Translations under genes and position numbers: made by a program
Notes under the pieces: generated by a model
Told to the model about the DNA's origin: nothing
The model's database searches: none
Seen by the model: only the letters and a program-made list of their open reading frames with translations
Shown here: positions 2,437 through 63,500 of the stretch, piece after piece
Position numbering within the stretch: the stretch's first letter is position 1
How the letters are laid out: every line of letters starts with the position of its first letter
NCBI GenBank assembly: GCA_001630475.1
Contig: KV419414.1
Span: 187,664-251,663 of the forward strand
Source: Sistotremastrum niveocremeum HHB9708
Lineage: Eukaryota; Basidiomycota; Agaricomycetes; Sistotremastrales; Sistotremastraceae
Reading direction: 5' to 3'
DNA length: 64,000 bases

Positions 2437-5400
2437 CTATGTCATATGTAAATGTAACGCTGTGTTACCGCGTTCTTGCTCTGAAATACGAGGAATCGAT
2501 TGTGATCTTGGATGACGATCACCTCTCCATCCAACAATCGATCTCCAACTTTGAGGAGATACTCGTTGGATAACCCGAGCGCGAAGTGACATGGGCTGGG
2601 ATGGCTCTATTGATGGGAGGACGTTATTGGCACCTGAAGCCACGAGGGTATCTGTGAAATCCGTCAAATGGTCATCGATTCTATCAGCGCAGGTGACGTA
2701 CTAAGCTCCGGAGCATCTCGAGCACTTAGCCTCTCCAGATATCGCCGAGCATCAATCTTCGTCTGCTCGCTGACACGTTCGTTTTCCGGCCATCGCGCCA
2801 TTCGTTCGGGTTCCTTGGCGCAGTATCTGAAGAACTTCAAAGGCATGCTGCCATGAACCCCTTGCCAATCAAGCCTTTCGAAAGCCCCGTGATTGAGATA
2901 GAACATTATCGTGTCACTGTGCTTGCGCCAGGTCTGCCGATATGGTCCGTACTGGTCGAAAAGATCAAGTATGTGAAACATATCAAAGGAGTGAGAGACG
3001 GTAAAATTGAGGGGGAGTAATGGGATGAGTTGGGCGAAGAAGTCCAAAACCCGGAGATAGCACGCATGATCGCGGACCGCAGACGGATTGCCGATAAAAT
3101 CCGACATATCATTCAGGAGCTCCGTCTCGCGTCCTCGTACAACGAGGGACACCAAGCTTTCCAATCGGGACCACTTCAAATTCGACTTTTGAATGAGGAA
3201 GCTGATGAAATCTTGCAAATGGGTCTTTGAGAGGATCTGCCTCACGACATCCTCTCTATGCTGCTCCGGAAGCTCTATGAGTTCCAAAATGGGGCCTTTG
3301 AAGTGCTTGGTTGAGTGATTAAGAGGACGATCTTCAAGCAAAGCGCAAATGTTGAGGCTGAGATCGTTGAGCTCTTCATCGGAAAGTCTCGGAAGTGCTA
3401 CTTGTCCATGAGAAGAGTATAGAGATCGTTAAGCTGTTCACTCACGAACGAAACACTCATGGTAGAATTGAAACCTGCTTCGTTGAATACCGGGACCGCT
3501 ACGATACCTGCGGAAGCGGGGAGCCGGTGAGGTATTCTGCCAGAACTCCCAAGCCGGCTGTAAGTCGGATAGGCGCTCAAAGCCGCCGTGATGCAAATAG
3601 TAGAAAACGGTCTCACTGGTCTCCTGGACAACGTCTGCTTCAACGAGTATCGTAAGGAGAGCAGAGAGATCAAGGTCATCAGGAACCGTAAAATCGAAAG
3701 GGAGAGAAGCTCGTAGAAGCTCGAGGAAATTGATGATAGGTACATCCACATCGAAAAACCTGTGAACCACTTGCACATTGGACAGGTTTGACAGGAAACG
3801 AGACAGTTCATTGAGGATGTCGATTTCGTTTCCTTCTGTGATGAAAGAGACAAGCGCTTTGACGTCATCCCATGCTTGATGTGGGCCCTTCAACAAGGAT
3901 CGAAGCAGAAAGGAGCGACGAATGCCGGACAGAATTGTTGTGATGTCATGTAATCTTCCGTCCCTGACGAGCGAGTCGCATTCGCGAAATGCCGAGTAAA
4001 AGACATCCGCTTGCTCTCCCAACTCGATGTCACGATCATGCATGCATAGAATGCGAGAAAGAGATTCTTCGTACGACTCCGGCATCTGGCCTCGAAGAGT
4101 TCGGTTGCCTTCTTCCAAAGATGTAAAGAAGACGAAAGAAGGAAAGAACTTTCGGTGGTGATCGTGTGATTGGTTCACCAATGCACCAAACTGGGCTTTA
4201 CACCAGCTTGTCAATTCAGTTGGATGAATTGTGCTGTTCCACCACGTTCGTCCATCGGAACCATTAGTCCACCCACTCCATTTCCTGAAGTAGATCAACT
4301 GCATGTGCGTTGTCTCCTTCACTCGAAATGATGTATCGGTCGCAAGAAATCGTGCATGAATCGCCTTGAAGATCGGGAATAAGGATTCTCCCGCCTGTGA
4401 CCATTTCGCAAAATCGAAGGAAGGCGATATCCGGTCCAAGAGTTCAGCATCGCCGGTATTGATCGCAAGCCGAGCATAGGTCTTCAGCTCTCTTTCGACC
4501 TCGCTGTCCTTGTCGTTCCATTTTATCAGAGCCTCCAATCTATCAGGATCTTGTCCGCTTTCGGACCCTTCAGAATCGTACTTCTGTCCTCCTTTCTCAT
4601 CCGCCTCGCCCATACGCATACCCTCCATCATAGATCGGCCGAAATGCTGACTAATCCATCTCAAAGTCGGTTTCATGGCGTTGCTTAATGGGCTCTCGAA
4701 AGGAGAGTTGACATGCAAGGCGGCATGTATAGTTGTGGCAATGACGATACCCAGAATGAGGAGGGACAGGCCTGTCGCTAGGACTCCGCCTACGATCAAG
4801 ATAGGCGCCGGTCGGCCGAATGAGAATGCCAATTGCCACAACTGGATCAGGAAGCCGACCACGAAGAGACCAATGGAGAGGAGGAGCGTCCAGAAGAGAA
4901 GTCCCATCAGCGGCAGCATATAGCCATCCGCCAAGACTTTACGCCTCTCACGTGCTAAAGTTCGTTCTAGGTTCGTTTTGCCGAGCGGGACTGCGATCAA
5001 TCGCCCAGCCCATTGCATGCCTAGGACACACAATGCTGAGTTGAAGATCTGTTCCATGGTGGAAGGGGAGATTGGGTAGGAGAAGCGGTGTCATCATCGC
5101 TGGAGGGAGATGTGAACAGTTGGATAATGGGAGATATGAAAGCCGTGACGACCGTCAGGAAGAGTGCGATCTGGGACACAGATCAGCAGACCACGGATAG
5201 ATGGGACACAGCGCTCACGAAGACGAGAGATATCTGCATCAAATCTCTCCACTCGTCTACAACAATCTTGATCTTCGCTAGAGCTTCCTTATCAAGTGCT
5301 CCCCACGTCTGTTCATCTTCCAATGTTCTCCCGTCGTGTGCTCGATCGTCTACCAAGCAATGAGCAGTCCATATCATCTACTACGTAATTTCACAACCTA

Positions 5401-6677: not shown

Positions 6678-9600
6678 ATGCAGCCGAACAACGGGCTCGA
6701 ATCAAAGTTCGACAAGCTTATCGCCCTGATCGAGACTCAAAATGGATTGATCGGAGCTCAGTCGCAAACGCTGAAGGAGCAGAAAGACGAACTTTCACAG
6801 CAACACAAGACGATGAAAAAGCATAGCGTGATGTTAGAAGCATTAGAGAAAGATGCGACAAAAGGTGTGTATCATCTAAGGCTCCTTTATTTACAAGATT
6901 CCTCATGCTCTCGTGATGCAGATGACAGAGCTCACGATGCAAGGACTTTACAAGATGAACAGACGTGGGGGGCCATAGACAAGGAATCTCTCGCGAAAAT
7001 TAAAGTGATTGCCGACGGATGGAGGGATTTGATGCAGATTTCATTGGTTTTCGTAAGTGATTTGCGTCGTAAAGAAAGGCGAAGATAATGACTCGAATGC
7101 AGATTGCGCTCTTCCTCACAGTTGTCACGGCCTTCATCTCCCCCATAATTCAACTCTTCACCTCATCCCCCAACGATGCGAACTCGACCTCTTCGTCGAC
7201 CTCTTCGACCACCAAGAATCCGTTGCCATCAGTCACACTGCAACTCGTAGCACTCTTCTACTATCTTGCGCTCATCGTCAGCGTAAGCAGCCATTCCTAT
7301 CGCGGAACGTCAGCTGACGCTTTCTGTCCAGATCTGTAACTCTGTCCTCTGTGTCCTGGGTATGCAATGGGCCGCGCGGTTAATTGCTGTGCCCCTCGGC
7401 AAAACGAACCTCGAGCGAACACTCGCCCGTGAGAGACGAAACGCCATCGCAGATGGCTACATGGTGCCCCTCATGGGGGTTCTAGTGTGGACCCTTCTGT
7501 TGTCCATCGGCTTCTTCGTCATCGGGTTCCTCATCCAATTGTGGGATCTCGCAGTCTCTTTCATCGGCCGGGCACCTATTTTACTTTTCGGCGGAGCTTT
7601 CGCGACTGCTTTGTCGCTTGTCATTCTGGGAATCATCATCGTCACAACCGTACATGCATCTCTGCATGATAACTCTCCATTCGAGAGTCCCCTTAGCAAC
7701 GCCATGCGGCCGTTCCTTATGTGGATTCGCAGACTTAAGAAGCCTACTTCAAAGGGAGCTGTGGCCACGGAGTCACCCCAAGTAGTCGATGAAGCGAACA
7801 CAGAGCAAGGAGCTGCAGATGCAGAGGATGGTTATGATCCAAATGAGGTCAAAGCTCCTATCAAATGGGAAGACGCTGACGACGAAGACATACTGGCGCT
7901 TAAAACCTACGCGCGTCTCGTCATCGACACCACCGATCCCGACATTCTCGAGCGTGCAGTACCATCATTCGAGTTCTCAAAGTGGTACAGCGCCGGAGAC
8001 AAGCTCTTCCCTCTCTTCAAAGCCGTATACGAGCGATATATGGCAACCGATGCTTCCTTCCGAGTCAAGGAGACTGCGTACAGGCAGTTGATCCAATTCA
8101 AGGATTGGCATGGTTGGTCCGGCCACGACTTCGCTAAGCGATGGCAGTGGAAGTCAGACCTCAAGCCCGACGAATGGATAAGATGGTGCCAAAGCAGATG
8201 CGAGGAGATGTTCCGAAGATCACGGGAATCCCGACGCGCATTTTATTCTACCTATGTCTTCTTCGTCTCGTTCGAGGAAGACAATCAAGATCTTCGGGGA
8301 TCGCATCCTGAGTCATACGAACAATGCATGCTCCGCGTCCTCAGCTCGTATACTCAGCTGCAGGAGATCGGAGATCGGGAAGATTTATTCCGAGCGACGG
8401 TCAGCGAATGCAAATCTCTTATCGAAGACGGGAACGCCGACGATGTGATCACGATATTCGGAAAGCAGGGTCCAGGCACTGTCCTTCGCTCTTTGCTTGA
8501 AAACCGGGTTTTACTATGGGATGAAATATACGATGTCATATCATTGATCACCAAAGGGAAAGAGGTCAAAGTATTGAATGAGCTGTCTCATTTCCTCTCG
8601 AATCTTCCGGAGATGGAAACCGTCCATTCACCTTTTGATCAACAACTATTGGTCGTTGAATTCCTTACCTATATCGGTAACAGTCTTACTTGGAACTTCG
8701 CCGTACCCTCCAGTCTCGATCTTTCTTCCGTTTTTGCACTTGTGGCGAGAGAGTCTCGAATCCCGCAATATGCCCTCCCCTTGCTGCTTTGTCTTGAGAA
8801 GGGAGGACTCGAATCCCTCTCCGATCTCGGGTCGACTCTCCCGCTTTGGGCCTTCTACCGTGACGCATCTTCGGACCGGATAGAAGTCCCAGGATCCCAG
8901 AACGATATCGCTCGATATCCAGAGTTCTATCTTCGCCACAACGGATGCTTCACACGTGCGTGTGTCAATATATTCTCTGTGATGCGATCCTCACATATCT
9001 CTTAGCTCTTCCTGCGCTTGCCGACGAAGAATGCGATGACCTTGGCAATGCGATCTGTACGCAAGTCGGAACGTTTAGAACATTCGACCTCACCAGTCAT
9101 CGGGCTTCCAAACGACTCATCCTGGAGTTGATCACTCTTCATGAGGAGCAAAGGAACATTGTCACTAACCTTGTTCTCGCGCGTGTTCAAAGGAGTCGTT
9201 TTATCTCCGTCATCCGAGCTTCTCACTGGGATTGGGAACGAATCGAGCCCTTGATGGCATTAATCACTCGTGGACATGAAATTGAGCTCCTGGAGACCAT
9301 GTCAACTCACATCGGTAACCCACTGAACATGCGGGATCATCTCAATTGGATGCCGGCTCTTGACTTCCTCGTCCATCTCGTCCCCTCTCTTCCACCAAAC
9401 TTCGTCATTCCTCAGGGATTCGGACTCTTCGGTCCGCTCTACATGTTTACGCAACACAAGCGTAGTCGCAAGACGTGGCGTAAATACAGCGACGCTCTCA
9501 TCTTCTACCTGGATCATGGAGGTTTTGATCGACTTGCCAGGCCCGATAAGATCATTGCGAAATTCTTCAAGCTTTGTGTCGACGAGTCATCGAAGATGAA

Positions 9601-10512: not shown

Positions 10513-13500
10513 ATGGCTGATCTAAGCCATAGAGTCGAGCCAAAGGAGGAGGTGCTTACTACAAGATTCGATACGCTCATCGAATTGATGGGTACACAAA
10601 ACCGATTAATCGAGAAGCAAAGTCAGACCTTGGAAGAGCAAAAAGAGAGGCTCCAGGAGCATCATGATACTATGAAGATGCATACGGTAATGTTGGGAGC
10701 GGCCGAGGACAATTCTACGAAAGGTTTGAGAACTTGTGGATGTCGATGTCCCAAGGTGACTGAAACCAACACAGATAATCGAGCCCACGAATGCCGAGCA
10801 CTGGAAGATGAGCAAACGTGGGGAGCTTTGGATAGGGAGTCGCGAGAGAAGATCAAAGTCATCGTGGATGGATGGAGGGATCTGATGCAGGTCTCCCTAG
10901 TTTTCGTAAGGGATGCAATTTATCAGTGATCCCTATGCTCATACTACGCCCAGATCGCGCTTTTCTTGACAGTCGTTACGGCATTCATATCACCCATTAT
11001 CCAACTCTTTACTTCCCGCCCCCAACACATGGGTTCTTCGAAGTCGACAAAAACTCCTCTGCCTCCAATCTCGACGCAACTAGTAGCTCTTTTCTAGTAT
11101 CTAGCAATCATCACGAGCGTGAGTATCTTTCGAAATCACTTCATTATTTGCGCCTGACGTTTGTCTAACAGATACTTAATTCCGTGTTGTGTGTCCTGGG
11201 AATGCAATGGGCGGCACGGCTGGTTGCAACGCCCCAAGGAAAGACGAACCTCCAACGAACTTTAGCTCGCGAGCGTCGCAGGGTTATCGCCAATAGCTAC
11301 ATGTTCCCCTTGATCGGTCTCCTCTTCTGGACACTTCTTCTTTCCATCGGCCTCTTCGTCGCAGGCTTTTTGATCCAATTATGGGCCTTGGCCTCATCTT
11401 TTGTCGAACCGGCGCCTATTTTGATAGCTGGCGCAGTGTTCGCCACGGCTCTGGCACTTGTGATTGTGGGACTCATCGTCTCGACCACTGTCCATGCATC
11501 TCTGCACATCAATTCGCCCTTCGAGAGCCCGCTGAGCACGGCCTTGAAACCGGTTCTACGGTGTATCCACGAATACTCCCGATCACGGGGAGCTAATCAA
11601 AGAAGGATCGAGGGCGAAGAGGACGTCGAAAGCGTGGGGTTTTTGATCAAATGGGATGATAATGACGACGAGACTCTCAAAGCTCTGAAGACGTATGCGC
11701 GGCTGGTCATCGACACCAGTGATGCCGAACTTCTGCAGCAAGTTGCTCCTTCGTTCAATTTCAGGAGTTGGTACCTTGCAGGAGATGCGCTGTTCCCAGT
11801 CTTCCTGGCCGTACGCGAGCGATTCCTTGCGACAGATACGTCGTCGAGCGTGAAGGAGACCATTCTTGAGCAGCTGCGAAGCTTCGCGGACCGGGATGGG
11901 TGGATGAAGATTCAGTCCCCCGACAAACCGATGTGGAAGGACGACCTCGGAGCGAATGAGTTAACGCAGTGGTGCAAATCCCATTGTCAGATGCTGGTCG
12001 AGACATCTCGCGAATCGCGCCGTCTTATTTTCCCCCTCTGGGTCTTCTTCGCCTCGTTAGAAGACGGCAATGCCGATCTCCGAGGCAGAGGTCCAGATTC
12101 GTACGACAAGTGCATCGCTCGTGTCATCTGCTCATACTTCGGCGCAAGAGAATTGGGCCCTCGGGGCGTTATCTTCCGAGCCGCCGTGAAAGAATGCGAA
12201 CTTGCCATCCGAGGTGGCAGGTCGAATGATATCAGGGCAATTCTCTCTCATTACCCTCCAGTCGTCTTTCTTCGCTCCTTGATCCAAAATCCTTCCGTGT
12301 CCTGGCATCAAATGTCGGATCTGTTATCGTTGATCACCAACGGGGTCGAAGCGGATATTTTGAAGGAGATGTCAGGATTTCTGTCCAACCTCCCGGAGAT
12401 GCATACTATTCGATCTGGCCGCTCTCTTAAATTGCTTCCTTTCGATCTTTTACGCCATCTGATAGTCGGTCTCCCGGTTGATTTCAAAGTCCCACCTAGT
12501 CTGGATCTCTCTCCTCTTCTTGCCCTTGTGATCAGGCACTCTTGCGTCGAAGAATATTTCTTCGCCCTGATTTATTACCTTGATCACGGCGGCATCGACA
12601 ATCTTACAGATCTGCGGCCTGCGCGGAAATTATGGGAGTATTGTCGTAGTGCATCCGATGGCACGCGATCTCCAAAAGATCGATCTCGGCTGCTTGCTTT
12701 TCACTCTCAGTATCATGCGTGCTTTGTTCGTGAGTCCTCTGATTATCTCTCCAGTCATTATCTCAATCCATCTTTAGCGCTACCGACGCTTTCCGAGGAA
12801 GAGTGCGGAAATCTATATGAGGACCTATCTGCGATGATCATGCACGATCATGGTCCTGGTTATTACAAAGACTTCCGAGGTTCACTCTTCCACTGGATTG
12901 ATCTCCCCAAGAAACAGAGGCTTGACATCGCTCGCCGTCTATCATCGCGCGGGCATGCCCCAGCACTGCTCAACTTGCTGATCGAGCGATCCCATGCTAC
13001 GTGGGATCAGATTGAAGGCTCGGTGACCTTGCTCATACGCGAAAACGAGATCGATTGCGGCACGCTTATAAGCGGCCTAACCCCCTTCGTGAATCAACAA
13101 TCTCCTTTCCCGTATCATGGAGATCTACAACTCTTCCTCGACTTCCTTACGCATCTCGTACAGGTCTTCCCGTCGACGTTCTGCATTACCCGCGATAGCA
13201 GGTTCGATCTGTCTTCGACTTTGAGCCTATTCTCCATATACGGTCAAGATCGGTCGCATTGGCGCAGACACAGTGATACGATAATATTTTACCTCGATCA
13301 CGGAGCGTTCGAGATGCTTAATAATCTACGAGCCGCCGCCACTTTCTTCAACCTTTGTATCGGGGAGTCTGAAGAAATGAACGGGTGGCACAATGACGAA
13401 AAGACTAGCGATCGTACACGAGCTCGCGCAGAATTTTATCTGAAGGAAATCCGAGCTCGATGCGCTCGGGATGCCCGCAGCTTAAGTGTGTTTTTCGTAA

Positions 13501-13772
13501 TCTTTGCACCATTAATCCATACTCATGACATGACAGCTGCCGCGGATACGCGTACATCCGAGATTAGAGAAGATCACTATCTCGCGAAACCCGTTGTTTC
13601 TCTCGATAGAATTGTTCGTCATAATTCTCTGCGCAAATGGTTCGGGATATCGACACCTACCACGGCTGCCAGAAAGCGGCGAACGGCCTCCGCGGCTATC
13701 AAGGAAATAGATGGGACGGTCGATTCGAACATATATCTTGATATGCACGAGAATGGGCGGCTTTCGACTTAA
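10513..13772 (+). pseudogene. DUF6535 membrane protein, copy C, with an in-frame stop
   Basis: Exons are 10513-10723, 10775-10905, 10954-11118, 11172-12729, 12778-13485 and 13537-13772, the same architecture as copy B. The total of 1003 codons equals that of copy B. The second transmembrane helix reads QLVALF then TAG at 11095-11097, then YLAIITS; copy B has Tyr at that place. Everything downstream is preserved, so the lesion is young, allelic, or a sequence error. A product could also start at ATG 11208 (MQWAARL) within exon 4. Two introns (12730-12777, 48 nt; 13486-13536, 51 nt) are multiples of three and contain no stop, so 11184-13772 reads as one long frame although paralogs show they are introns. 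The C-terminal tail differs strongly from that of copy B. Confidence 0.75.
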
Positions 13773-19872: not shown

Positions 19873-20261
19873 ATGGTCGATATCAAAGCTAGCCTGAAGT
19901 CTTGGAACTTCCGACCAGTAACAAATCCCCAGCAAGGATACCTATGGCAGGTTCAACGTTGGGCAGAGACCAACAACCTCAAGTTAGACTTCGAGACGGA
20001 GCAAGTTCCCGGAAGATCCTCAAACAGCCCTGTCTGGCAAGCCACACCCACAGGTGAGTAGATATCCAACAGGATTCAAGAAGCATCGGGTGAGGCTGAG
20101 ATGGGTATAGTCGACGGCAAGGTGCTTGCCCAGTATGTCATGGCTGCGGCGACAGTGGCAGAAGCCAAAGAAGCGGCTGCCCAGAAGCTTGCAGAGTCTG
20201 GTCGTCGCGTAAGCAGTTGCACAGACGTGAAACGATCATCGAACTGACTTTCTTACAGTGA
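19873..20261 (+). CDS. Small dsRBD-like protein, family member D1
   Basis: Exons 19873-20053 and 20111-20208 encode 93 aa; the third exon begins with the stop codon TGA at 20259-20261, directly after an intron (20209-20258) with a good CTGAC branch site and TTACAG end. The product MVDIKASLKS... holds LWQVQRWAETNNLKLDFE, then PVWQATPTVDGK and a helix AEAKEAAAQKLAESG. The order helix, three strands with PVW in the middle, and an Ala/Lys-rich C-terminal helix is that of a double-stranded-RNA-binding domain, and the protein contains nothing else. Similarity is by pattern only; the lysine triad of the second helix is partly degenerate. It is the first of four paralogs at 19.9-27.5 kb, all in the same orientation. 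Confidence 0.72.
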
Positions 20262-21079
20262 ACACGAGGATGACGTCACAGACATCGTCCAAACCAAGAG
20301 CATACGCGATAGATTTTATTGAGAAAGATATTCATGTTCTGATCATTCCATTCAATCATTATTCTGCGCAGGATATTGAAATTGTTTGACACGTACCCGT
20401 TTAAGCTTGTGAATGTGTTTGCGGACAACAGAAGGCTATTAGCTGTATCGGCAGAACAGCATGTATCGTCAAGCCGAGATGCAACACTTCGATCGCGTGG
20501 CGCTAATTGGCAGAGCACAGCTATGCCGCACGAAGCGCATTTATTTAAGCCACGTTCAGGCTTTGATGAATTTTCGAGACGCAACAAAGAGGGATCAACG
20601 AGGCGATGACGTCATGGTCTTATGCGCTAGGAGACAACGGAGACCAGGCAGCGCGAAAGAAGGCCGCACTGGACGAGCAAACGTCGAGTCTAAATTCGCG
20701 TTATCGGAAATATTTATTGGCAGCAGTTTGGCTACTCACTCGTAAATTCGCGGTTTGAATATAATATTTGTTTAGTGCAAGAACTATGGTGCCGAATTAG
20801 GTCGATTTGGCTGACGGTCAAGCTTCTCAAGTGCAAAGATTCTGCAGATGCAGAGATTTGACGGTGCTCCGGCAGCGTAGAGGATTGGTGGACGCTATGG
20901 AATGCGACGCGGTTCGACAGGGAGTGGTATTACACAGAGTTGCTGATTCTACACAGCTACTCGTCAGAGTAGTATTAGTATCAGAGAAAGCAGACGAACC
21001 CGCTATCTCCATCCCTTCAAAGCATTCCCTTGCAATCAAACCGATAACAATCCGTCTACATCTTCATTCTTCACGAGAA
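20262..21079. other. Spacer between D1 and D2
   Basis: Short frames only. A patch at about 20609-20760 on the plus strand (MTSWSYALGDNGDQAARKKAAL) faintly recalls the last helix of the neighbouring dsRBD-like genes and could be a decayed copy, but I cannot support it as a gene. Confidence 0.25.
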
Positions 21080-21471
21080 ATGGAATCTTTCAAATCTGCA
21101 GTCGGCACTCAGAAATTTCACGAGCCAAGGGGAGCTCAGACATACCTCTACCAAGTCAACCTCTGGGGAGGAAACGACCTCCGATGGCACGAAAGCACAA
21201 TCGACGGTCGCGAGGAACATGATCCCGTCTGGCAAGTCGTTCCAATCTGTAAGACCCCCCCCCATCCACACCACTTCGCGAGAGACACTCACTCGTGAGG
21301 TAACGCATCACAGATAAAGACGAGTTCCTAGCCGATTACGCCGCATGTGCTCCTACCAAGAAAGGTGCCCTCGAAGCTTCGGCGAAAGCATTGGCGTTAT
21401 CTGGCCATTGCGTAAGTAACACTTCAACGAATAATCTATCATATCCTCACCGTCGAATGTCCACACAGTAA
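21080..21471 (+). CDS. Small dsRBD-like protein, family member D2
   Basis: Exons 21080-21248 and 21314-21411 (98 nt, exactly as in D1) encode 89 aa, MESFKSAVGTQKFHEP... . The stop TAA (21469-21471) again stands immediately after the second intron (21412-21468, CACACAG end). Core features: YLYQVNLWGGNDLRWHES, DPVWQVVPI, and the final helix TKKGALEASAKALALSG, whose KK and spaced Lys best match the dsRNA-binding lysines of the canonical domain among the four copies. First intron 21249-21313 carries a poly-C run. A longer frame starting at 20807 is fortuitous: the M at 21080 matches the start in the paralogs. Confidence 0.7.
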
Positions 21472-22176
21472 GTCTAGCTCCATCCGTTTGTGGAAGTTGG
21501 GGTTGCATGGAAGCTGACCGGTGGGGTAGACGGAAATACCGACGGTTGGATTCGGTGCAACAATGACTCGCACTTGGGTGTTAGAGAGTTGGACATATCT
21601 ATCTTAGATTGAACATTGGACTTCGGACTTCGTAGTTGTGTCTCTTGCGTTAGTTGATAATACAGTTGTTGGACTTTGTTCAAAATGAGTGAATGCCACG
21701 ACAGTGCAAGAGTGAAGCAGGCTCACGATTTGCAACGCCATTTGGACTGCCATTCCACCTCGCCCCGTAGACTTGCTTTGAGACTGATTCCTGCGCATGC
21801 ATGCGATCGACGCGATGAATATTTGGTGGCTTGCTGGATGGACAGCCAGCAAGCACTTTTCCGCTTACGCCAGGTTCGCCTGGCGTGCACCCAGGATGGC
21901 GTACAATCTTCATGAAGGAGTAGTAGTAGTGTCGATAGGCACGACCAGTGACTCAGAGTCTGAAGTCTTGGAGTCAAGTTGGTTGCAGCCGTTGTCGTGG
22001 TGCGCTGCGAAGAGGGTTCGGCGATTACCTTTTTGCCCGCGTCACGGCCAGCTCGGCCTGGCATGATTTTCTGAACAGAAATGTAGTTGCAGACACTTCT
22101 GAAACTATTATAGAGTTCACAAGAACAGCAAATCCGGGTACTATATCTAAGGCCTAAAACTGATACGGGCAACAAT

Positions 22177-23527
22177 CTAGAGCCCGAGCTGAGATCGAGC
22201 AAGGCCGATCAGCAACCACCGGCTTTTAAACAATGAAGCGAGCCAATCGCCGAATCTGCGTTGATGATATTGAGTCAAAGCTTCAATAGAATTGGGAAAG
22301 ACCCTCACAGAATTCCCCACAATACGCCCAGATATCCGGAGCCACCATACTGTTGAAAGCGTCAGGAGAGGACAACAATAAATGGTTCACGCTGAAACTG
22401 ACCTTTCCGTTGGTGATCACGATAGCTTCGAACGTTCCCTGATATTCTTTCAGGTGCGCTGCCTGTCCTATTTCAATCTCTTTGAGCAGAGCTACGACGT
22501 TTGGGACGATGACTGCTTGATGCGCCCCGGCTTTACCGACTTGCTTCTGTTCAGGAAAATCGATGACATCACCCGCTGCTAGGATATGAGGGAAGGCGGG
22601 CAGTTGCATTGTTGGTAAGATTTTGACGTGACCAGAAGCAGTGAGAGACGCTCCGGGGAGGGACGATAAGAAGGATGTGTCCGGTTTACCTCCTCGAGTG
22701 GGCACCTATATTGAAAGAATCAGCCTGGGCCAAAGAAGGAATGATGAGCAAACTGACGATGAGATCAGCGACTAAGGAGTTTCCTTCCCGCGTTACGTAT
22801 GTCCCTTCGACTCCCGAAGATATGACCGGCGATAACTGATCGAGGTGGTTCTGAAGAAGGAGCTCTATATTCCGCTTCCTAACTTTGAGCTCAATATCCT
22901 TTCGAAATTTCAAGGGATAGGCCTCGTTGAGAAGGTATGGCCCTCCATGGACAATCGTGATCTTCTTATTCTGCAGCTATCGATCAGATACGAGCGTCAA
23001 GAAATTGAGAGAACGATGCGCACTGGATATAAATCCCTCAATTCTCCAGCAAGCTCGATGCCCACCGAACCCCCACCCGCCAATACGATCTTCTCGGCAT
23101 GAGCGAACTGTGATCGCCATGCTTCGACGTGAGACAAGGCGTGATTCTTCGTTCCGACGGGAAGATTGAGTCCTGCTTCCCATGAAGAGCCGGGCGCAAG
23201 GACCAATATATCCCAGTATATCTGATCACCGCTCTCCAACACAACCCAGCCTCTCCGACCATCCTTATCGGAACGGACTTCAGTAACGGTTCCGAGAACA
23301 AAGTTGCCATTCCCTTTGACGAAGAGCTTATCGAGAGGCATCAAGACTCTCTTCTCTAGCTCGCCTTCAGGAGTGACAATCATTCGCAGTGTGCCAGGAA
23401 GGTGGGTAAAGAAGTCTCTTGAGGAGATAAGAGTGATGGTATGTTGCTTAGGATCCAGTTTCGAAGACAGTGCGCGAGCGATAGGTGCACCAAAACCGCC
23501 AGCACCGATGATGACAATGCTCGGCAT
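22177..23527 (-). CDS. AIFM2/AMID-like FAD-dependent oxidoreductase
   Basis: Five exons (23527-23024, 22970-22758, 22705-22403, 22349-22309, 22255-22177) encode 379 aa. It is a pyridine-nucleotide-disulphide-type flavoprotein of the AMID/AIF2 group, which moves electrons from NAD(P)H to quinone-like acceptors. Visible: N-terminal FAD fold VIIGAGGFG (residues 5-13), second dinucleotide fold LAGGGSVG (149-156) with IELAGEL, FAD contact AAGDVID (282-288), and the family C-terminus YGGSGYLGVLWGI...FGDWLASLFKSRWL. The last two short exons were placed by restoring that C-terminus. Length and motif spacing are normal, so it looks intact. It lies between members D2 and D3 of the dsRBD-like cluster but points the other way; a functional link is not implied. 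Confidence 0.9.
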
Positions 23528-25499
23528 CGTTGCACTAGTATACGAGAACCTGATAAAGTGTGGATAAGCTACTATCCATGACCTGGATGGAATGAAGCTG
23601 CGTACTTATATCGACTAGGAGCTCAGATTCTTGTCCGATTAGCAGATTCGGAACGATGACGAGGCCATCAAGAAGCTGCCTGGAACGTGCAGACGCGGCC
23701 GCCGACTCTTATCACAGCTCAAACGATTAAGCTAAGCGAAATGCATGCCCAATCGGTAGAATAATTGGGTCGTCCATTGACTGATCATTCATGTCTGAAC
23801 GTCGTACTGCGCGTCGGCGAATGGATGATTGTCGCCAGCAACGTCCTGCTGGGAAAGGCACGAAAAAATGAGTTCGGCAGATGCCGATCTCGCTTGCTGT
23901 TGCCCACATTGGCACAGCACGCTAAAGCACGCTCTCTCTATTTCTCATAGTATCTCAGCGGTCCCGATGGCTATGGCACTCAGTTATCAACAGATTTCTT
24001 TACGCGTTGTTCTGCTCTATTCAAGTATATAGCTGCGGCCGACATGCAACAGAGCCTTATCTCATCACAAGTGTCATCGTATCTTCATCAGGTCACACGA
24101 TAATGAACATCACTTCATTTCAATCGAGTTTGAGAGGAAAACATGCTGTATCGCATGTATTCCTGTCTAACTCACTGCTCGATCCCTTCAAAACGTACTG
24201 CCTGTGTCGTTTTGCAGTACTGCAGCTATTCTCGATCTGTGCTTTTCTCGCCGAATCAAAGGGACAATGAGACTCCAGAGCCCTTCTTCAAGAGGGATAG
24301 ATCATCAGCCTATTGAAATGCTCTGTTCCGTGTCGCCATGATATCCGTTATTCTCGCACGGTGCGAGCACCTCAAGGGATACACTCTTCAGCACGCTCTA
24401 GTCACAGCTCATGATCGGCATGAGCATCAACACATGTTCGATCGATCAAACTACTGCTGTCGCGTACCGACTCTTGCTCCAATATCGCTCGTCCAATATT
24501 TCTGCATCGACTCCCTGGACGACATAACACAAAGCATCAAAGACCTCGGGCACTCTCGATTTAGTCAATGTGCAGTCAACGTTCAAAGTCACTCTGAACA
24601 TTAATTCAAATCTTACAAATGAACGAACAGTTGATCCACTGGAAGATGGATTAGCACAATCATTTCGGCGTTCCCGGCTGTCCATCAAGCTATCGATCGC
24701 CGATAATCTACGTCGCTAAACTCGAATTTCGTTGAACAACTGCTGATATATTTTCCGCCGCTGTTGGAAGAAACCCAGCGCAGGCACGAGACCTTCGATG
24801 CAGCAATGCTCTGCGTGGATCCTTGGATCTATGATCGCAGGCTGAAGTCCAGTCTGGACAGCACCAGCGTCTGTTGTGGACGGTGTCACTGTATGCCCAT
24901 TCATCCGTCTTGACCCAATCAAATCATGAAATCACATCGGGAGCCCTGGATTCTTGGCGGATTGATTACTATGTCTCTGTCAGGCTCGTCTATTCTCCCG
25001 GATTTTGCTTTCTGAGCCATCCATGTTCTGGACCTATTGCTGAATGCATGAAATAAAATACTAATCGCTGTATCATGGCTTTGCAGAATGCACTCATCAC
25101 TCTGCCTCGCTTCGTCCCGTTTCTACCCTAAAAGTCAGTCATTGATTTCTGAGGTTCCAATGATCGCAAGGCAATCCCAGATCGCGCTGTCTATTACCCT
25201 AGATCAAGCACGAATTGCTCCACTAAGAACCCCTCGTGTAGGCTGAAGTCACTACAACAACTGAGTTCCGCGCGTTATTTGGCTGACGCTTATAGACTCG
25301 CAGTCGAATTCCAACCCTCATTTTATCACTTGTACTCTGACTAGTCACTCGGACATCCAATGCATCATACACTGGCGACTTTTGCAAGCACTGTTCTAGG
25401 TTATAAAAGCCCTTCCCGAGGTTCAATACCGCACGCCGCCGCCACCGACTGGACAACCCTCTCCTACGAATTTCTCAAATACTCAGACTCTCCAGAACA
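23528..25499. other. Intergenic with the D3 promoter
   Basis: No credible gene. TATAAAAG at 25402-25409 lies about 90 bp before the ATG of D3 and is its likely TATA box. On the minus strand a TATAAG near 23606-23612 may serve the oxidoreductase gene. Confidence 0.4.
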
Positions 25500-26033
25500 A
25501 TGCCCTCATTCAGATCTCGCCGTGGAACCGGTTACTTCAAAAATAAGAATCCCAATTCCAATACCCCTCAGAACTATCAATATTACATTAGCCTTTGGGC
25601 CACAAGCGAGGGCCATAAGTTCGATTGGCACTCGGTAGTCCAGACCGGTGGCCGACCAGCACATATTCCTGTGTGGCAAGCGATTCCGAAAAGTCAGTAA
25701 CACACTTTGATTTTTTGATCATTTGCTGATGACTGTTGGCTGTATAACAGTCACATGGTCCGATGGCACCGTAGAGATTCTATACCACTACACGGAGTGT
25801 GCAGCTGAGCAGAAGCTAGCCAAAGAAGCCGCGGCAAAAGCTATGGCTGAATCCGGACATTGTGTACGTCTCCTTCCTTCTTCATATTCTCCCTTCCCTC
25901 ATCAAATAATCTAGTGAACTCGCAATCTCCACAGACTTACTCGTGGAAGCTGATTGGTTTCATCGAGGCCCACCAGAAGCAGTCGATCCATCCGCTCAAT
26001 CGTAATTTCCTTCATCTCGCCTCCCCTCTCTAG
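25500..26033 (+). CDS. Small dsRBD-like protein, family member D3
   Basis: Exons 25500-25692, 25751-25863 and 25935-26033 give 134 aa. Start MPSFRSRRGTGYFKNKNP is followed by NYQYYISLWATSEGHKFDW, IPVWQAIPKITWSDGTVEI and AAEQKLAKEAAAKAMAESG: helix, beta strands and Ala/Lys helix in dsRBD order. Unlike D1, D2 and D4, the third exon is coding (TYSWKLIGFIEAHQK, then 17 more residues) before TAG at 26031. The same sequence exists downstream of the stop in D4 as non-coding DNA, so D3 differs from its sister mainly by the splice acceptor used. A TATA box stands at 25402-25409. Confidence 0.72.
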
Positions 26034-26160
26034 TCAAGGAGAGACGAATGAAGGATCCTGCTCAAGGTTGTCTTCTTTGCAACCACAACTCGCACGTAGT
26101 AGTATTATCCTACATTTGTCGGCATCTCATCATACGTGGTGGAGTGCCAACGATGTTTTA
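25936..26160 (+). repeat. 3' duplication shared by D3 and D4
   Basis: The D3 last exon plus 3' flank (25936-26160) matches 27496-27688 behind D4. Shared words include GTGGAAGCTG, CAGTCGATC/CAGTCGATT, CGTAATTTCCTT, AAGGATCCTGCT, GCAACCACAACTCGCAC and CGTGGTGGA. The two genes therefore arose by a duplication that included the 3' flank. Confidence 0.75.
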
Positions 26161-26909
26161 GATTTCATTTCTTGGACTTGTTTCGTAGTTTCCTTGTTGT
26201 CCGTCTTCTGAGTCTTCGTTCGATTTTCTCCATAGATGATTCACCCCTCTTCCTACTCCGTACTCGCTGCTATGTTTTTCAGTTCAGAATATACTTGCCA
26301 ATCGAAAAAACCAACCTCGATTGAATCGGATTGATACGGGAGGAAAATCCGAAAGAGAATCTTATCTTTCTCAGGCTGTGGGTAGAGACTGAATGCCTCA
26401 AGACATTATTGATTAGGTAATTAACACTACGAAAGCTCGAATACGTTCGCTAATACACAAGCCACGGAAATGCAAATAACTATTCCAGAAGCTTCAGTGA
26501 CAACAACGCGAACAAACAATAAATCTGACACCGCTATAAGCTCACGGCACCGCCTTGTTAATATAGAGGGGGTACCATGGCCTCGGGTTAGTTACCCTAC
26601 TTCCGCTACGCGGTGTAGTAGCTGGAGTGATTAGAAAGCTTTTAGGGTCGCTAAAAGAGCCTCTCATGCCACTCGGGCCCTGTCGGGAGATCCCGCAATC
26701 GCTTTTTGTGCGTGTATTATCATGTTACCGATCCCGACGCAAGATGAGAATAGGGTACTTCTGGGTAAAAATTGACCAACCAAGTCTTTACACTCTCGTC
26801 CGACCCTCCTTCAACAATCATTCCCCAAATTTGTGGTGTAACGCCTCATAGGCTACTCTTGGAGGCGCACTGGGAGCGTTGCGACAACCATGCGCAGTCT
26901 GACCTCCAC

Positions 26910-26917
26910 TATAAAAA
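26910..26917 (+). promoter_or_regulatory. TATA box of D4
   Basis: TATAAAAA stands 131 bp before the ATG at 27048, in the same context as the TATAAAAG of D3. The spacing implies a leader of roughly 100 nt. Confidence 0.45.
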
Positions 26918-27047
26918 CCCCTGGATATTGTCAGATACTTCACTACCCATCTCTTCGCCTCCCCTTTGCGCCTTCACCTTCACCTACCAATATCCAAGCC
27001 ATCAGTCCTCTAGCCCGGTGACTACCCATAGTTGCTCTCACATCCCG

Positions 27048-27474
27048 ATGCCTTCCTTCTACGATAAACGTGTCAAAGGATACATGAAGGACAAAACCAT
27101 CGACTCAGTACAGAACTACAAATACTGGGTCGGCAAATGGCTCGAAACGCAAGGCGCCAAACTCGATTGGGCAATGAGTGAAGTGGACAAACAACCGGCT
27201 CATAGGAGGATTCCTCAGGCAATTCCCATGAGTAATCGTGTTTCTGCTTCCATCATTTCTCAGTATTTCACTAAACGCTTTCTTGTGACTAGTTCGATGG
27301 AATTACGGAACTCCGGGGGAGTTCACTGAGAAGCTACCGAAATTCGTACAAGCTGATGCGCGCGTCAAAGACGCGCAAGAAGCTGCTGCGAAACTGATGG
27401 CCGAATCTGGTTATTTCGTAAGTGCAGCCCCGCCCCCTATACGCTATCCTTTTCAAAGAGTCTCCATCTAGTAA
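27048..27474 (+). CDS. Small dsRBD-like protein, family member D4
   Basis: Exons 27048-27231 and 27293-27417 give 103 aa; splicing to the CTAG at 27468-27471 puts TAA (27472-27474) directly after the junction, as in D1 and D2. The product MPSFYDKRVKGYMKDK... keeps NYKYWVGKWLETQGAKLDW and the last helix VKDAQEAAAKLMAESG. The conserved PVWQA core has changed to RRIPQA, losing the tryptophan found in the other three copies. The acceptor used by the sister gene D3 (CACAG before ACTTAC) is mutated here (GTCGAC before ACATTT), which explains the shorter end. It may be a decaying copy. Confidence 0.62.
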
Positions 27475-28033
27475 GCCTACCCGGCTAATTGTCGACACAT
27501 TTGTGGAAGCTGGCGGTTTCATAGAAGCCGAACCAACGCAGTCGATTTTCCTCTCCTGATCGTAATTTCCTTGCCTCAACAAAGGATCCTGCTGAAGTTT
27601 GTCTTCCGTGCAACCACAACTCGCACAATTTTTTCAGTTCATTGGTTGACATTCCATCTTTCGTGGTGGATGTTTGCCATGTGCTTTAGAGATGTAGTTA
27701 TGGACTCTGATTGTCTCCCGTTTTAAATTGTTATTCCTTCTGTGTCTGATTAATCCGCTTAGACTACTTGCTGCTATTGCTTCGATTTGTCCACAATATA
27801 CGTTTTACTTTCAGTTCAAGAATCCCAGATGTCATTCGGCCCATTCTGGTGGACACCTTCGATTTACTGCAAGGATTTCTACACTCAGAGTCGACGCTTA
27901 GATACCTCACTTGTCGTGCGTATTTTATTATTGTGACAATTGTGAAACATTTCTCAGACATACATTGCTTAAAGTACAATTTGCACTCGCTCTTCTTCGT
28001 TTTCTATCCTTTCCCAACGCCGTTCCCGCTGGC

Positions 28034-45778: not shown

Positions 45779-48700
45779 TCACATATCGGACCCTCTGATC
45801 ACATCTGCTTCAATCCCGGCTCGCAGAATTGCCAGCTTATCACGGCACTTCTTTTGTCCCACCAAGTTCTCAGCCCTTTCGTACCAACGCAACGAATGCT
45901 CGTAGTACGCGTGAGCTGATGCGACATCTCGTTCCGCCAAGCCAACGTCTCCAAGCCCAATCAGACAGTCAGCAATGTGACGTCTGAGACCAAGATATTT
46001 GACAAGATCCAGTGCGGCCTGATAGCAAGCCTTTGCTTCGGATACTTCGTGGTGATAAAGAAATACGTCTCCCAAGCCAGTCAGACATTCGCCGACACCC
46101 ATTTGATTAGCAAGCTGTCGATAGATTACGGCTGCAGTGATGTAAAGCTGGTTGGCCGCGGTTGTATCACCTCGTTGAAGGGCATTTTTACCCATCATCA
46201 TGATTACTTCCGCTTCAAGGACGGTGTTCATTCTCTTCTGCGAACAATAGAGTTGCCGACCCTCACAAAGATGAGTCCAAGCAGTGCTATGGTTCCCCCT
46301 GAGCCCCTCCACGTTTCCGATACAAATGATTGCCCAGGCTTGGGCTCCGGGCCACTTTAGCTCTACGTATCTCCTAAGAGAGACGTGATAACGCGTTAAA
46401 GCCTCGTCGTAGTTGTGCCGCTCGACAGCAAGATGCGCCAGAAGAACAGACGTGTCGATGATGAGGTCCTCTCGGCTAAGCTTCGCGAATACTTTGTAGG
46501 CTTTATTAGCGAACTCTTCGGCCTCCGTTATCCGTGATTGCATCGTGTACATCTCCGCGAGATGAAAGAGGTTGTAGGTGTATCGCCAGGTCTCTCCGAC
46601 AACAGAGAGCTGTAAATCCGCTGCCTTGCGAAAAGCATCGGCAGCCAAAGGGAATGCGCAGAGTTCGAGATAAATCCTTCCTAATTGAGTGTAATTATCT
46701 GCGCTCACAAGAGGAAGATTGTGTCGTTCTGCCAAAGCTAGGCTCTTCAGAACAACAGCCTTCGCTTCCGAGATCTTCCCGGCCTCTTCAAGTGTGCGAG
46801 CAATATTGCGCATGGCGTTTCCTTGAGCTTCCCAATTTTGACACTGAGCGAATAAGTCGACCGCTTCCCACTGAAGTTCGACCGCTTTGCCAAATTCGCC
46901 CATTCGCCGATAACAATCTCCTAGACTTCGTACGCAGCGTGCAATTGATGGCTTCAGCTCCGGGTTATCCAGGTCACGGTATATTCGGAGCGCCGTCTCG
47001 GTTCTCTCCTTACTGCTCTCTATGTCGGTGGCAAAGACTGTATAGCTGAGACAGATGCAATCAGCTTCCAGTTTCCGAGCACCGATTCTTTGCGCAGCGG
47101 AAAGAGCCAGACGAAGTAATTCACTGGAATTGAGCGAATAATCTATGAAGTCTCCGAGCCGTAAAGTGGCTTCGATGGCGGCTGTGGATGAAGCTTCCGA
47201 GCGGAGCGCCGCTGCTAGAATGCAGGAGATATTCGATATCTGAGCTTGAATTTGGGACAGTTGCTCTTTGTCCTCGAATGTTCCCTTCGCATCAACCAGC
47301 CTGGTGAGCTCGAAGTAATAGTTCTGGACGGCGGCTAGCTCAATCGAAGGGAGGGGCAAATGAGCTTGAATGAACTCGCGGATAGGAGAGAGGACTCTCA
47401 GACGATGTAGACTATCCTCATATACTAATGCCACCTGTCGCAGAGCCGTGATACCGCCAGCGATTGCACTGGGGTCGACGACCATTTTAGAGATTTCCGA
47501 GCTTGGAACCCCATCCGGTAATAAGGAGAGGATCTGGAGGATGGACAGGGCTCGGGGATTTTGCATCATACGCTCGCTGGCCAATGAAACTTGGATAGAA
47601 ACATCCACACTACAGAGGCGATAGTCGACGAAGCCTCTGGTCAACATCGCCGTTTTCTCCGCCTTCCACTGGGAGAGGAGCGTTGCACAAGATGTGTGCT
47701 GAGCAAGGTTGCTCATCAAAGTAACCGCTAGTGGGACGTTATCCAAAGCTTCCAGAAGCTCTGAAAGATCTGGATCGTCCTCCGAGGTGTCAGAAATGGC
47801 AATGAACGTCTGGCGTGCAGACTTCGAATCGAGGGGTGGGAGGACTGGAATGAATGGTCGAGTCCAAGCAACACCTTGTGGTCTCTCTGCTCCGCGCAGA
47901 GTGATTAGCAGTGTTAACATGGGGTTTCTCGACAACGTCGTTAAGATATTCTCTACGTCTAACCTATTTGCGGAAGGCTCCCAAGTCGTTTCGAAGTTAT
48001 CAAGAAGGATAAGGAAGGGATCTTTCAGGCGGGAAAGAGTATGCGTGAGTGCTGGGAGTATATTCTTGTCGGATATACTGAATGGCTTTCCGAGAGCCCC
48101 GAGGAGAGAGGGAGCATCGTGTAAGCCTTCGCAGGATATGAAATGTATGTTCTTTCGATATTTTAATCGCGTCATGGGATGATGGGCGGTAGCGAGAGCA
48201 ACGCTCGTTTTGCCGATACCGCCCGGTCCCAATATCGCGACGTGCGAGGACTCGGAACCGGACACTTGTGCCACGAGGGTATCTAAAGTATCCGATCGTC
48301 CGAAGAAGATTTGAGGGGCGGGTGGTAATGTGCAGTTGACGTTTGAGCTACCAATATTTTCAGCCACTTGCGAGAGAATCTCAAATTTCGAGCGTACCTC
48401 TCCGAACTCTCTGTGCTCTGTTTTAAGTTATGTCAGCGATCCCGAAAGGCCTGATAGGAAGCATCTGACGACGTACCGAATGGGAATGAACGAGTTGAAG
48501 TTGCGTCTGATATGCTTGCGAAATGGCCTCACTAAATCGATCGCCTTGCTCCTTTATAGAGTTTGTCAACCGGACGTTTGCAAGTCGAGTATGAAGCTTT
48601 GCACACGACATGAGCTCATTAAAGGTCGAAAATGCCTAAAACGTTACTCACGGAGAATAAGTGGACACATCTTTCAAGATCTTCTTCAAGACTGGAGATT

Positions 48701-60545: not shown

Positions 60546-63500
60546 TCAGACAAGCTTGCAGACAAGAGAATCTAGACGTTCTCGAGAGCTCTCTTGTCCC
60601 CAGAAATGCTCAGCCCGATTATACCAGGCCAAACTCCTCTCGTAATAATCTCTCGCTAAACTGACTTTTTCTTCAAGCGCAGCTACATCACCTAGCTTCA
60701 TCAGGCATTCAGCCACATATCGCCTGATACCTATGTATCGAATCATATCCAGTGCAGCCTGGAAGAGAGCCTTGGAGGTGACCAGATCTCCATATTCCAG
60801 CAAAATATCGCCGAGACCGACCAAGGATTCCATGATCCCGCCTCGGCTACACGCTTTGCGGTGTATTACGCCTGAAAGAACGAAGAAAGTGGTAGCATCT
60901 GCGTATCTCCCCAGCGCGATACCATCGCGTCCAAGTCCTAGCATGGCCCTTGCTTCCCAGATAAGATTTGTCCGATTGTCTAGTCGAGCAAGACGTCTAG
61001 CTTCCGCATGGTGGGTCCACGCGGTGGAATAATTTCCGCGTCGGTACTCCGCTTCTCCGATAGGGATCAAAGCGATTGCTTTCCAATTTCTCCAGTTCAG
61101 ATCTTCGTAGCATCGCAGGCTGACGTGGAATTTCGTCAAAGCCTCCTGTACATCTCCTCTGTCTAAAGCAATCTGACCCAAACTCCGCACCACATTGACG
61201 GTGAAATCAATCGACCCTAATCTCGTCAGGATGCGATAAGCTTTATCGAGACATTCCTTGGCTTCCGTGAGACGGCCCATGTTCTGAAGTACGTCTCCAA
61301 GTAAAAGAAGCTGTAGCCCGTAAGGACCGGAATTCTCTCCTAGAACGGCCAGCTGGATCTCTAATGCCTTTTTGAAATAGGAAGGAGCCAGAACGTAAAG
61401 AAAGCGTTCGGTGTATACTCGTCCCAAATGGGCGTAACAGGCAGCAGTCTCGAGACTGCCATGGGACGCAGTGGTTGATGGAGGGAACTCATGTCTTCGC
61501 GCCATTGACAGAGCGTCAATCATAACGCGTTGTGCCTCGTTCAATCTTCCACTTTCCTGAAGAATGCCAACAAGATAACTCAACGCATCCAGCTGCCTTT
61601 TGAATGATCGAGTTCGAGCATAAACTGCAATTGACCTTTGAAGACAGTCAACTGCAGGGTCCCATTCTGCGAGGCGTCGATGGCAATCTGCCAACATTCC
61701 TAGAGCTCTGGCGACTTTCAGCTCCACCTGCACTGAACTCTCCAGGCCCTCGTATATCGATAACGCATACAGAACTTCTTTCTTGTCTTCACTAGGATGC
61801 TTGGGAAAGACGGAACTCACTCGGTGACAGCGAGCAACCAGACAGTCTGCTTCCAACGTTCGGTTCCCAATTCGTTGTGCCGCACTAATAGCGAGTGGGA
61901 TTAATTGAACTGCAATAGAAGATGCGAAGGTGAAAGACCCCAGATTGACGACGGCTTGTATTGCGGGTTCTGAGGGTTGCTCTGATTTCAAAGCATGTTC
62001 GAGGACGGTGGATATGTTGGCTATGCGAGAGAGGATACGGTTTGCTTTATCGAGGTCTTTCGATGCCTCAGCGGCAGGGGCTGCGGTTGTCAAATCCAGA
62101 TGACAGTTTAAGAGCGGAGAAAATTCTTCCGCGTTGATGGGCAAATGTTCTTGAAGATACTCTCGGATCGGGGATAACAGTCGAAGCCGCGTGGTGAGAG
62201 TCTCCTCGTAAATAATTGCCACTTGACGAAGAGCAGTTATGGCTGCGAATATGCCCTTTCTGTCGCGCGCCATTTTATTTAACTCTGACGCTGAAACACC
62301 GTCCGGTAAGCAGGACAGGATCTTCAGGATGAGTGATGCATTGGGATGCGCGGAGAGTCGCTCTGAGTTAAGCGAGACTTGAATGGAGACGTCCAGACTG
62401 GAAAGTCGAGAGTAAAATCCTCGATTGAGCATCGACGTTTTCTCAGCTTTCCATATTCGCAGTAGCTCTGCGCAGCTGTATTGCTGTGCAAGGTTCGCCA
62501 TGAGTGCGACTGCCAAAGGAACATTGTCAAGGACGTCCAGCAAAGTTGAGAGGTCTTCGTCGTCCCATGGAACGTCGGAGATGGCCACGAATGTCCGTCG
62601 AGCTGCATCTGAGTCCAGACTCTGCAGCGGTGGCAGAAAGGGACGATGCCACTTAACTCCGAGGGGTCGCTCTGCACCGCGCATCGTCACAATGACTGAC
62701 ACATGTGTCATCGAGACCAGCCTGGCCAAAAAACTCTCAATCTCGACTCTAGTTGCGTTGGGTTCCCATGGACTCTCGAAATTATCGAGGACCAAGAGCT
62801 TAGGACCACGGACCGATGAAAATGCTTCGCTCAGCTCTGCGATGGTCCGAGTCGGAGCTGTGAGCTCTAAAGTCTTTTGAATTTTACTCAAAAGCATTTC
62901 TCGATTCGTTATTTTGTCACAGGAGACAAAGAATCGATTGCCCCCGAAGCGTTGAACGATGTCGGGATGATGAAGAATGGCAATTGCTACTGTCGTCTTT
63001 CCGATGCCACCCATTCCTAGGATGGCAATGGAAGATTGTTCAGAGTCTGTCAGCTGTTCCACAGCTGACTCCACAAATGAAAGACGACCAAAGAAAATAT
63101 GGGGAGGGGGAGGAAGCGAGAAACTAAAGAATGATTAGCTGTGTATAATTATCTACACAAGTGAGCTGACCAGTCAAAGGCGTTCCTAACGATCTGTGAT
63201 ATCCAAGTCTCAACTGAAGTTCGTAGGAAATCTGTGAGAATTTACCGTTGATTGCTCGCCAACATTATCCCCTATCAATGTCTGCTGCTCCTCATAAGCA
63301 TGCGATATTGCTTGTGCCAATGCATCTTCTCGTTGGCAAACGTTCCGAGTCAATCTTGACGAGAGGCGTATATTAGCGACTTTGGCAGTCAACTTGACGA
63401 CGTAGCACCGTTTAGTTTCAATACAACATAAAGAGAATTATTCACACACCGAGAAAACATCAATGGAGCGTTCAAAATCTTCCTCAAAATTCCTGAGCTC

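Follow-up and report, generated by a model that had tools for sequence, protein, structure and literature searches.

The classical dsRBD contacts RNA through a glutamate in helix 1, a GPxH loop and a KKxAK motif in helix 2. A single dsRBD on its own usually binds weakly, and some dsRBDs, in proteins such as TRBP, Loquacious and Staufen, have changed RNA contacts and serve protein contacts. Four small genes, D1 to D4, which lie in a 64-kb stretch of DNA (the window, meaning the whole stretch analyzed), may carry the same fold with altered contacts, but in TRBP, Loquacious and Staufen such a dsRBD is one of several domains, whereas in D1 to D4 it stands alone. Set against the Pfam family of dsRBDs (PF00035, dsrm), the family to which the four belong agrees in the length and order of its elements, as judged by alignment, and in its Ala-rich last helix, and two of ten other members pass the Pfam cut-off. 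It differs in that D1 falls below the cut-off, D2 to D4 are unmatched and the contact motifs are incomplete, and also in carrying Trp in strands 1 and 2, about 20 extra residues at the front and no other domain. A further point of comparison lies in the same genome: an RNase III-like gene (the C7 gene) has a C-terminal dsRBD that shares with the family the site and phase of an intron and is matched by the family profile at 27.8 bits. It differs from the family in being preceded by an RNase III-like domain, itself weakly matched, and in keeping GPPH and a Lys-rich start of helix 2 (NKQAAK). A literature search found no title or abstract describing such a family; most subscription journals lie outside its coverage, so the result does not imply that the family is unpublished.

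The four genes were modeled as follows:

19873..20261, + strand: D1, 93 amino acids; exons 19873-20053 and 20111-20208, stop TGA at 20259-20261
21080..21471, + strand: D2, 89 amino acids, pI 5.7; exons 21080-21248 and 21314-21411, stop TAA at 21469-21471
25500..25917, + strand: D3, 102 amino acids; exons 25500-25692 and 25751-25863, stop TGA at 25915-25917
27048..27474, + strand: D4, 103 amino acids, the most diverged of the four; exons 27048-27231 and 27293-27417, stop TAA at 27472-27474

As originally predicted, there are four genes on the same strand, extending from the ATG at 19873 to the stop at 27472-27474, and the first intron is in phase 1 in each of them, just after strand 2 (PVWQATP in D1). 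In all four the frames are open, the introns are GT-AG and the stop is placed alike: the second intron is in phase 0, and the stop is the first codon past its AG. The predicted size range of 89 to 134 amino acids stands except at its upper end, which came from a reading of D3 that uses a later, disfavored acceptor. D3 is best read as 102 amino acids because the intron 25864-25914 (acceptor AG at 25913-25914) sets TGA directly after AG, as in the other three; the extra stretch of the longer reading aligns to D4 DNA only with insertions and deletions. The PVWQA motif ascribed to all four is exact in D1 and D3 but reads PVWQV in D2 and RIPQA in D4, and the Ala-rich segment of the last helix is present throughout. 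D1, D3 and D4 are basic (pI 9.0-9.3) and D2 is acidic. The proteins are mutually related, all six pairs scoring above 500 of 500 shuffles with z from 10.9 to 36.8, the last being the value for D3 and D4; the D3 sequence compared had one additional Val. A six-frame scan of the window found the eight D exons and no further copy of the family, the next match having an E of 0.92. When the scan was made with a profile of members outside D1 to D4, nothing matched at E up to 1 except seven of the eight D exons, of which three passed the inclusion threshold; exon 1 of D4 was missed.

The family comprises at least 16 loci in the genome of 34.7 Mb, in line with the prediction that small single-domain proteins of this kind are multiplied. 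Eleven of the loci are on C21, the contig of the window, two each on C32 and C43, and one on C41. The searches used D1, D3, D5, D2, C21_180k and C21_331k as queries, D1 leading to D5 and D5 to the wider family; the best candidates were scored, and 16 is a lower bound. The loci on C21 are:

C21: D1 to D4, D5 (136 kb), and loci at 137, 142, 145, 180, 331 and 333 kb

Trp in strand 1 and Trp in strand 2 are each found in 15 of the 16 members, and all 16 have Pro after strand 2. Other members may likewise have a terminal second intron: a donor-like site at the stop, seen in four of ten (D5 and C21_145k set aside) against a background of 6.5%, is suggestive of it. Such stand-alone dsRBD genes are easily missed, since 12 of 14 scanned members fall below the Pfam cut-off or go unmatched, and each is split by introns. 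The first exon of the C41 member is without a clear ATG, and a weak match on C61 (E 0.23) was read as an unrelated gene and not counted. At 145 kb of C21, exon 2 enters a short repeated sequence and then a stretch of N, and the last helix is absent. C32 (145-148 kb) and C43 (146-148 kb) carry a two-gene block of the family in identical order, with supports in the tree of 99/98 and 96/95; the collinear block may be paralogous, or the two may be diverged haplotypes.

The kinship of D1 to D4 with dsRBDs appears most clearly through intermediate members. Compared directly with PF00035, D1 scores 21.3 bits (E 4.3e-4), below the cut-off of 23, and D2, D3 and D4 give no dsrm match in the Pfam scan. 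The scan of the other twelve members, with E up to 1, covered ten, all except C41_269k and the broken C21_145k: C21_331k (29.6 bits) and C21_333k (24.9 bits) pass, two lie below the cut-off and six have no match. A profile built from the twelve members outside D1 to D4 scored D1 at 52.8 bits, D2 at 42.3, D3 at 21.0 and D4 at 13.6 (filters off, search space 10,000); the D4 match, with an E of 0.03, is weak by itself, and D4 is strongly tied to D3. The best shuffles reached 10.7, 6.6, 6.7 and 8.6 bits for D1, D2, D3 and D4, from 1000 shuffles per gene of which 996, 931, 952 and 951 were reported. Comparison of profiles with profiles related D1 to D4 to 11 paralogues at 98.8% and the paralogues to a set of four dsRBDs (that of C7, two of PKR and one of DRB2) at 97.7%, and D1 to D4 directly to the same set at a weak 75.5%; these percentages come from single comparisons and are distinct from database E-values. 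Searches of PDB with D1 alone and with D1 to D4 together found no dsRBD. With the whole family (15 rows), dsRBDs were four of the nine matches listed, including the top three, at E-values (0.021, 0.057 and 0.19) that are not significant. It is very probable, judging from this chain of homology, that D1 to D4 descend from a dsRBD.

The original prediction of dsRBD ancestry is therefore supported through the profile chain, weakly for D4 taken by itself, and the profile search proposed for it succeeds by way of the paralogues, not by direct matches of the four to dsrm. D2 had been named the best preserved, a place that belongs to D1, which has the higher score with the outside profile and is the one with a score against dsrm. 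The predicted order of helices and strands fits dsRBDs by alignment. A structure model of D1 lacks a third strand; it is poor (mean pLDDT 54.8), was read through the intron, with 19 intron-coded residues, and speaks neither for nor against the fold.

The contact motifs distinguish D1 to D4 from the classical domain. None of the four has the helix-1 Glu, none the GPxH loop and none the full KKxAK, so the plain sequestration of dsRNA that had been proposed for them is weakened and becomes doubtful. D2 to D4 retain the loop His, and D2 has two Lys at helix 2. Across all 16 members, C21_331k is the only one with all three motifs, and C21_333k is complete except for the loop His. In the 12 members outside D1 to D4, the helix-1 Glu is kept in nine, GPxH is complete in four, and KKxAK is present in two of the 11 that are readable, so that most of these, too, are without at least one motif. 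Erosion of the contacts is family-wide, and the helix-1 Glu alone clearly separates D1 to D4. To judge by their residues, the four form a divergent branch without what normally grips dsRNA. Classical binding would accordingly be expected of C21_331k, and an altered function of D1 to D4. The basic character of D1, D3 and D4 means that some RNA binding may remain; with D2 acidic, net charge does not decide the matter.

Where might the family have come from? In the C7 gene, dsrm matches at 43.5 bits and an RNase III-like domain matches weakly (Ribonucleas_3_3, E 1.9e-5, 25.3 of 35 bits), and the intron of its dsRBD has the same site and phase as the family's phase-1 intron after strand 2. For D1 to D4 that intron is taken from the gene models; for the other 12 it was read by eye, with acceptors chosen with the alignment in mind. 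The dsrm matches of C3 and C11 cross the intron site uncut, without a stop, and the dsRBD of C11 is absent from the matches of the family profile at E up to 100. A search with the dsRBD of C7 recovers, besides itself, C3 (E 7e-4) and C21_331k (E 0.04), the uncut C3 domain outscoring C21_331k. The shared intron site favors descent from a C7-like pair of exons, at a strength short of proof, and dsRBD genes elsewhere may often have an intron there. We judge the chances about even that the family arose from the dsRBD exon pair of an RNase III-like gene. D1 to D4 themselves have no Pfam match to an RNase III catalytic domain at E up to 10.

According to the model that we prefer, the source was an RNase III-like gene: the pair of exons for its C-terminal dsRBD turned into an independent gene, which gained about 20 residues in front of the domain, and tandem and block duplication then built the family. 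C21_331k, and nearly also C21_333k, with their classical contacts kept, would bind dsRNA in the usual way. D1 to D4 would keep the fold and more likely exert their effect by contacting proteins, whether other dsRBD proteins or RNase III or Dicer enzymes, and such pairing would tune the processing of dsRNA. The observations beneath the model are the chain of homology, the shared position and phase of the intron, the concentration on one contig, and amino acid change lower than silent change. Taken as a whole (a divergent, dsRBD-derived branch, an origin in an RNase III exon pair, and a role in protein contacts), it seems to us as apt to be right as wrong. Its protein-contact step, taken separately, is rather improbable, and we rate it slightly lower than we otherwise would because loss of contacts is common across the whole family. 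That such a domain, taken from an RNase III-like gene, grew into a clustered family of free-standing proteins, and that D1 to D4 within it gave up RNA contacts and became small protein-binding regulators of RNase III, Dicer or members of their own family, in-house modulators of RNA interference, is unlikely. Should C21_331k bind dsRNA and D1 to D4 not, a single genome would hold a natural series that runs from RNA binding to the loss of binding, together with a candidate further level at which fungal RNA silencing is controlled.

D1 to D4 might instead bind and shelter dsRNA themselves, damping RNA interference or acting against viruses. Their dsRBD ancestry, the basic charge of three of them, the loop His kept in D2 to D4, the two helix-2 Lys of D2 and the presence of RNA-silencing genes in the genome would all suit such a role, but no complete contact motif of the three is found in any of the four, D2 is acidic, and a lone dsRBD is usually a weak binder. 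We take sheltering to be possible, if somewhat doubtful. The objection might also be raised that D1 to D4 are a different small alpha/beta family, whose likeness to dsRBDs is a coincidence owed to a last helix rich in Ala and Lys. One could cite for this the missing dsrm matches of D2 to D4, the PDB searches with D1 or D1 to D4 and the poor model of D1. Against it, the outside profile scores all four above every reported shuffle, the intron site and phase are shared, and two paralogues pass the dsrm cut-off; a chance likeness is highly improbable.

Perhaps, finally, D1 to D4 are relics drifting toward loss, with no function of their own. Strong divergence, incomplete contact motifs and the paralogue without its last helix (C21_145k) fit this idea, but the open frames, GT-AG introns and uniform placement of the stop do not, nor does the pattern of substitution. 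Between D1 to D4, pS is 0.61-0.87 and pN 0.37-0.51, and in a comparison of eight genes every one of the 28 pairs has pN below pS. We think decay very unlikely; by their sequences, D1 to D4 are old duplicates under constraint. The fast evolution originally envisaged is not supported by these figures as an adaptive process: the highest computable dN/dS is 0.66 (D2 and D4). Many silent distances are saturated, and local positive selection may remain. In a tree rooted at its midpoint, from which C21_145k was left out and to which C7 was added (on a long branch of 2.47), D1 to D4 fall on one side of a branch with support of 89/98, short of the 95/80 mark, and the branch occurs in 88% of 200 bootstrap trees.

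One feature beyond the coding sequence is shared by D3 and D4:

25934..26143, + strand: stretch past the stop of D3, resembling by local alignment the stretch past the stop of D4 (about 27494-27670)

The two stretches are 77% and 76% alike in two pieces, although pS between D3 and D4 is 0.87, and so are more alike than silent sites would suggest. The likeness may stem from conversion between the two or from a conserved untranslated element. A dispersed repeat was rejected, as a genome search finds D3 and two D4 pieces only, and so was an RNA structure, since shuffled stretches fold as well (z -0.09 and 0.41).

RNA-silencing genes are present in the same genome: Argonaute matches at five places and RdRP matches at five, the places grouped by hand, and 15 RNase III matches. 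Neither these genes nor the neighbors of D1 to D4 tie the four to RNA silencing. A single scan for viral relatives, with C21_331k, gave 10 pattern matches, none confirmed. PMC12663654 prompted the idea that Dicers lack a dsRBD and that D1 to D4 supply one in trans. The idea is weakened, since the end of the Dicer-like gene on C6, read by eye, looks like a dsRBD; the one on C1, also by eye, may end in a dsRBD as well. Ten reading frames were scanned for the setting of the locus in the window. Between the D1-D2 and D3-D4 pairs lies a partial pyridine nucleotide-disulphide oxidoreductase gene (23000-23605, - strand). Three DUF6535 frames are found at 3438-5057 (- strand), 7362-9005 (+ strand) and 11184-13772 (+ strand), and two NLR-like frames (nSTAND1 or NB-ARC with TPR) at 45779-48367 and 60546-63074, both on the - strand.
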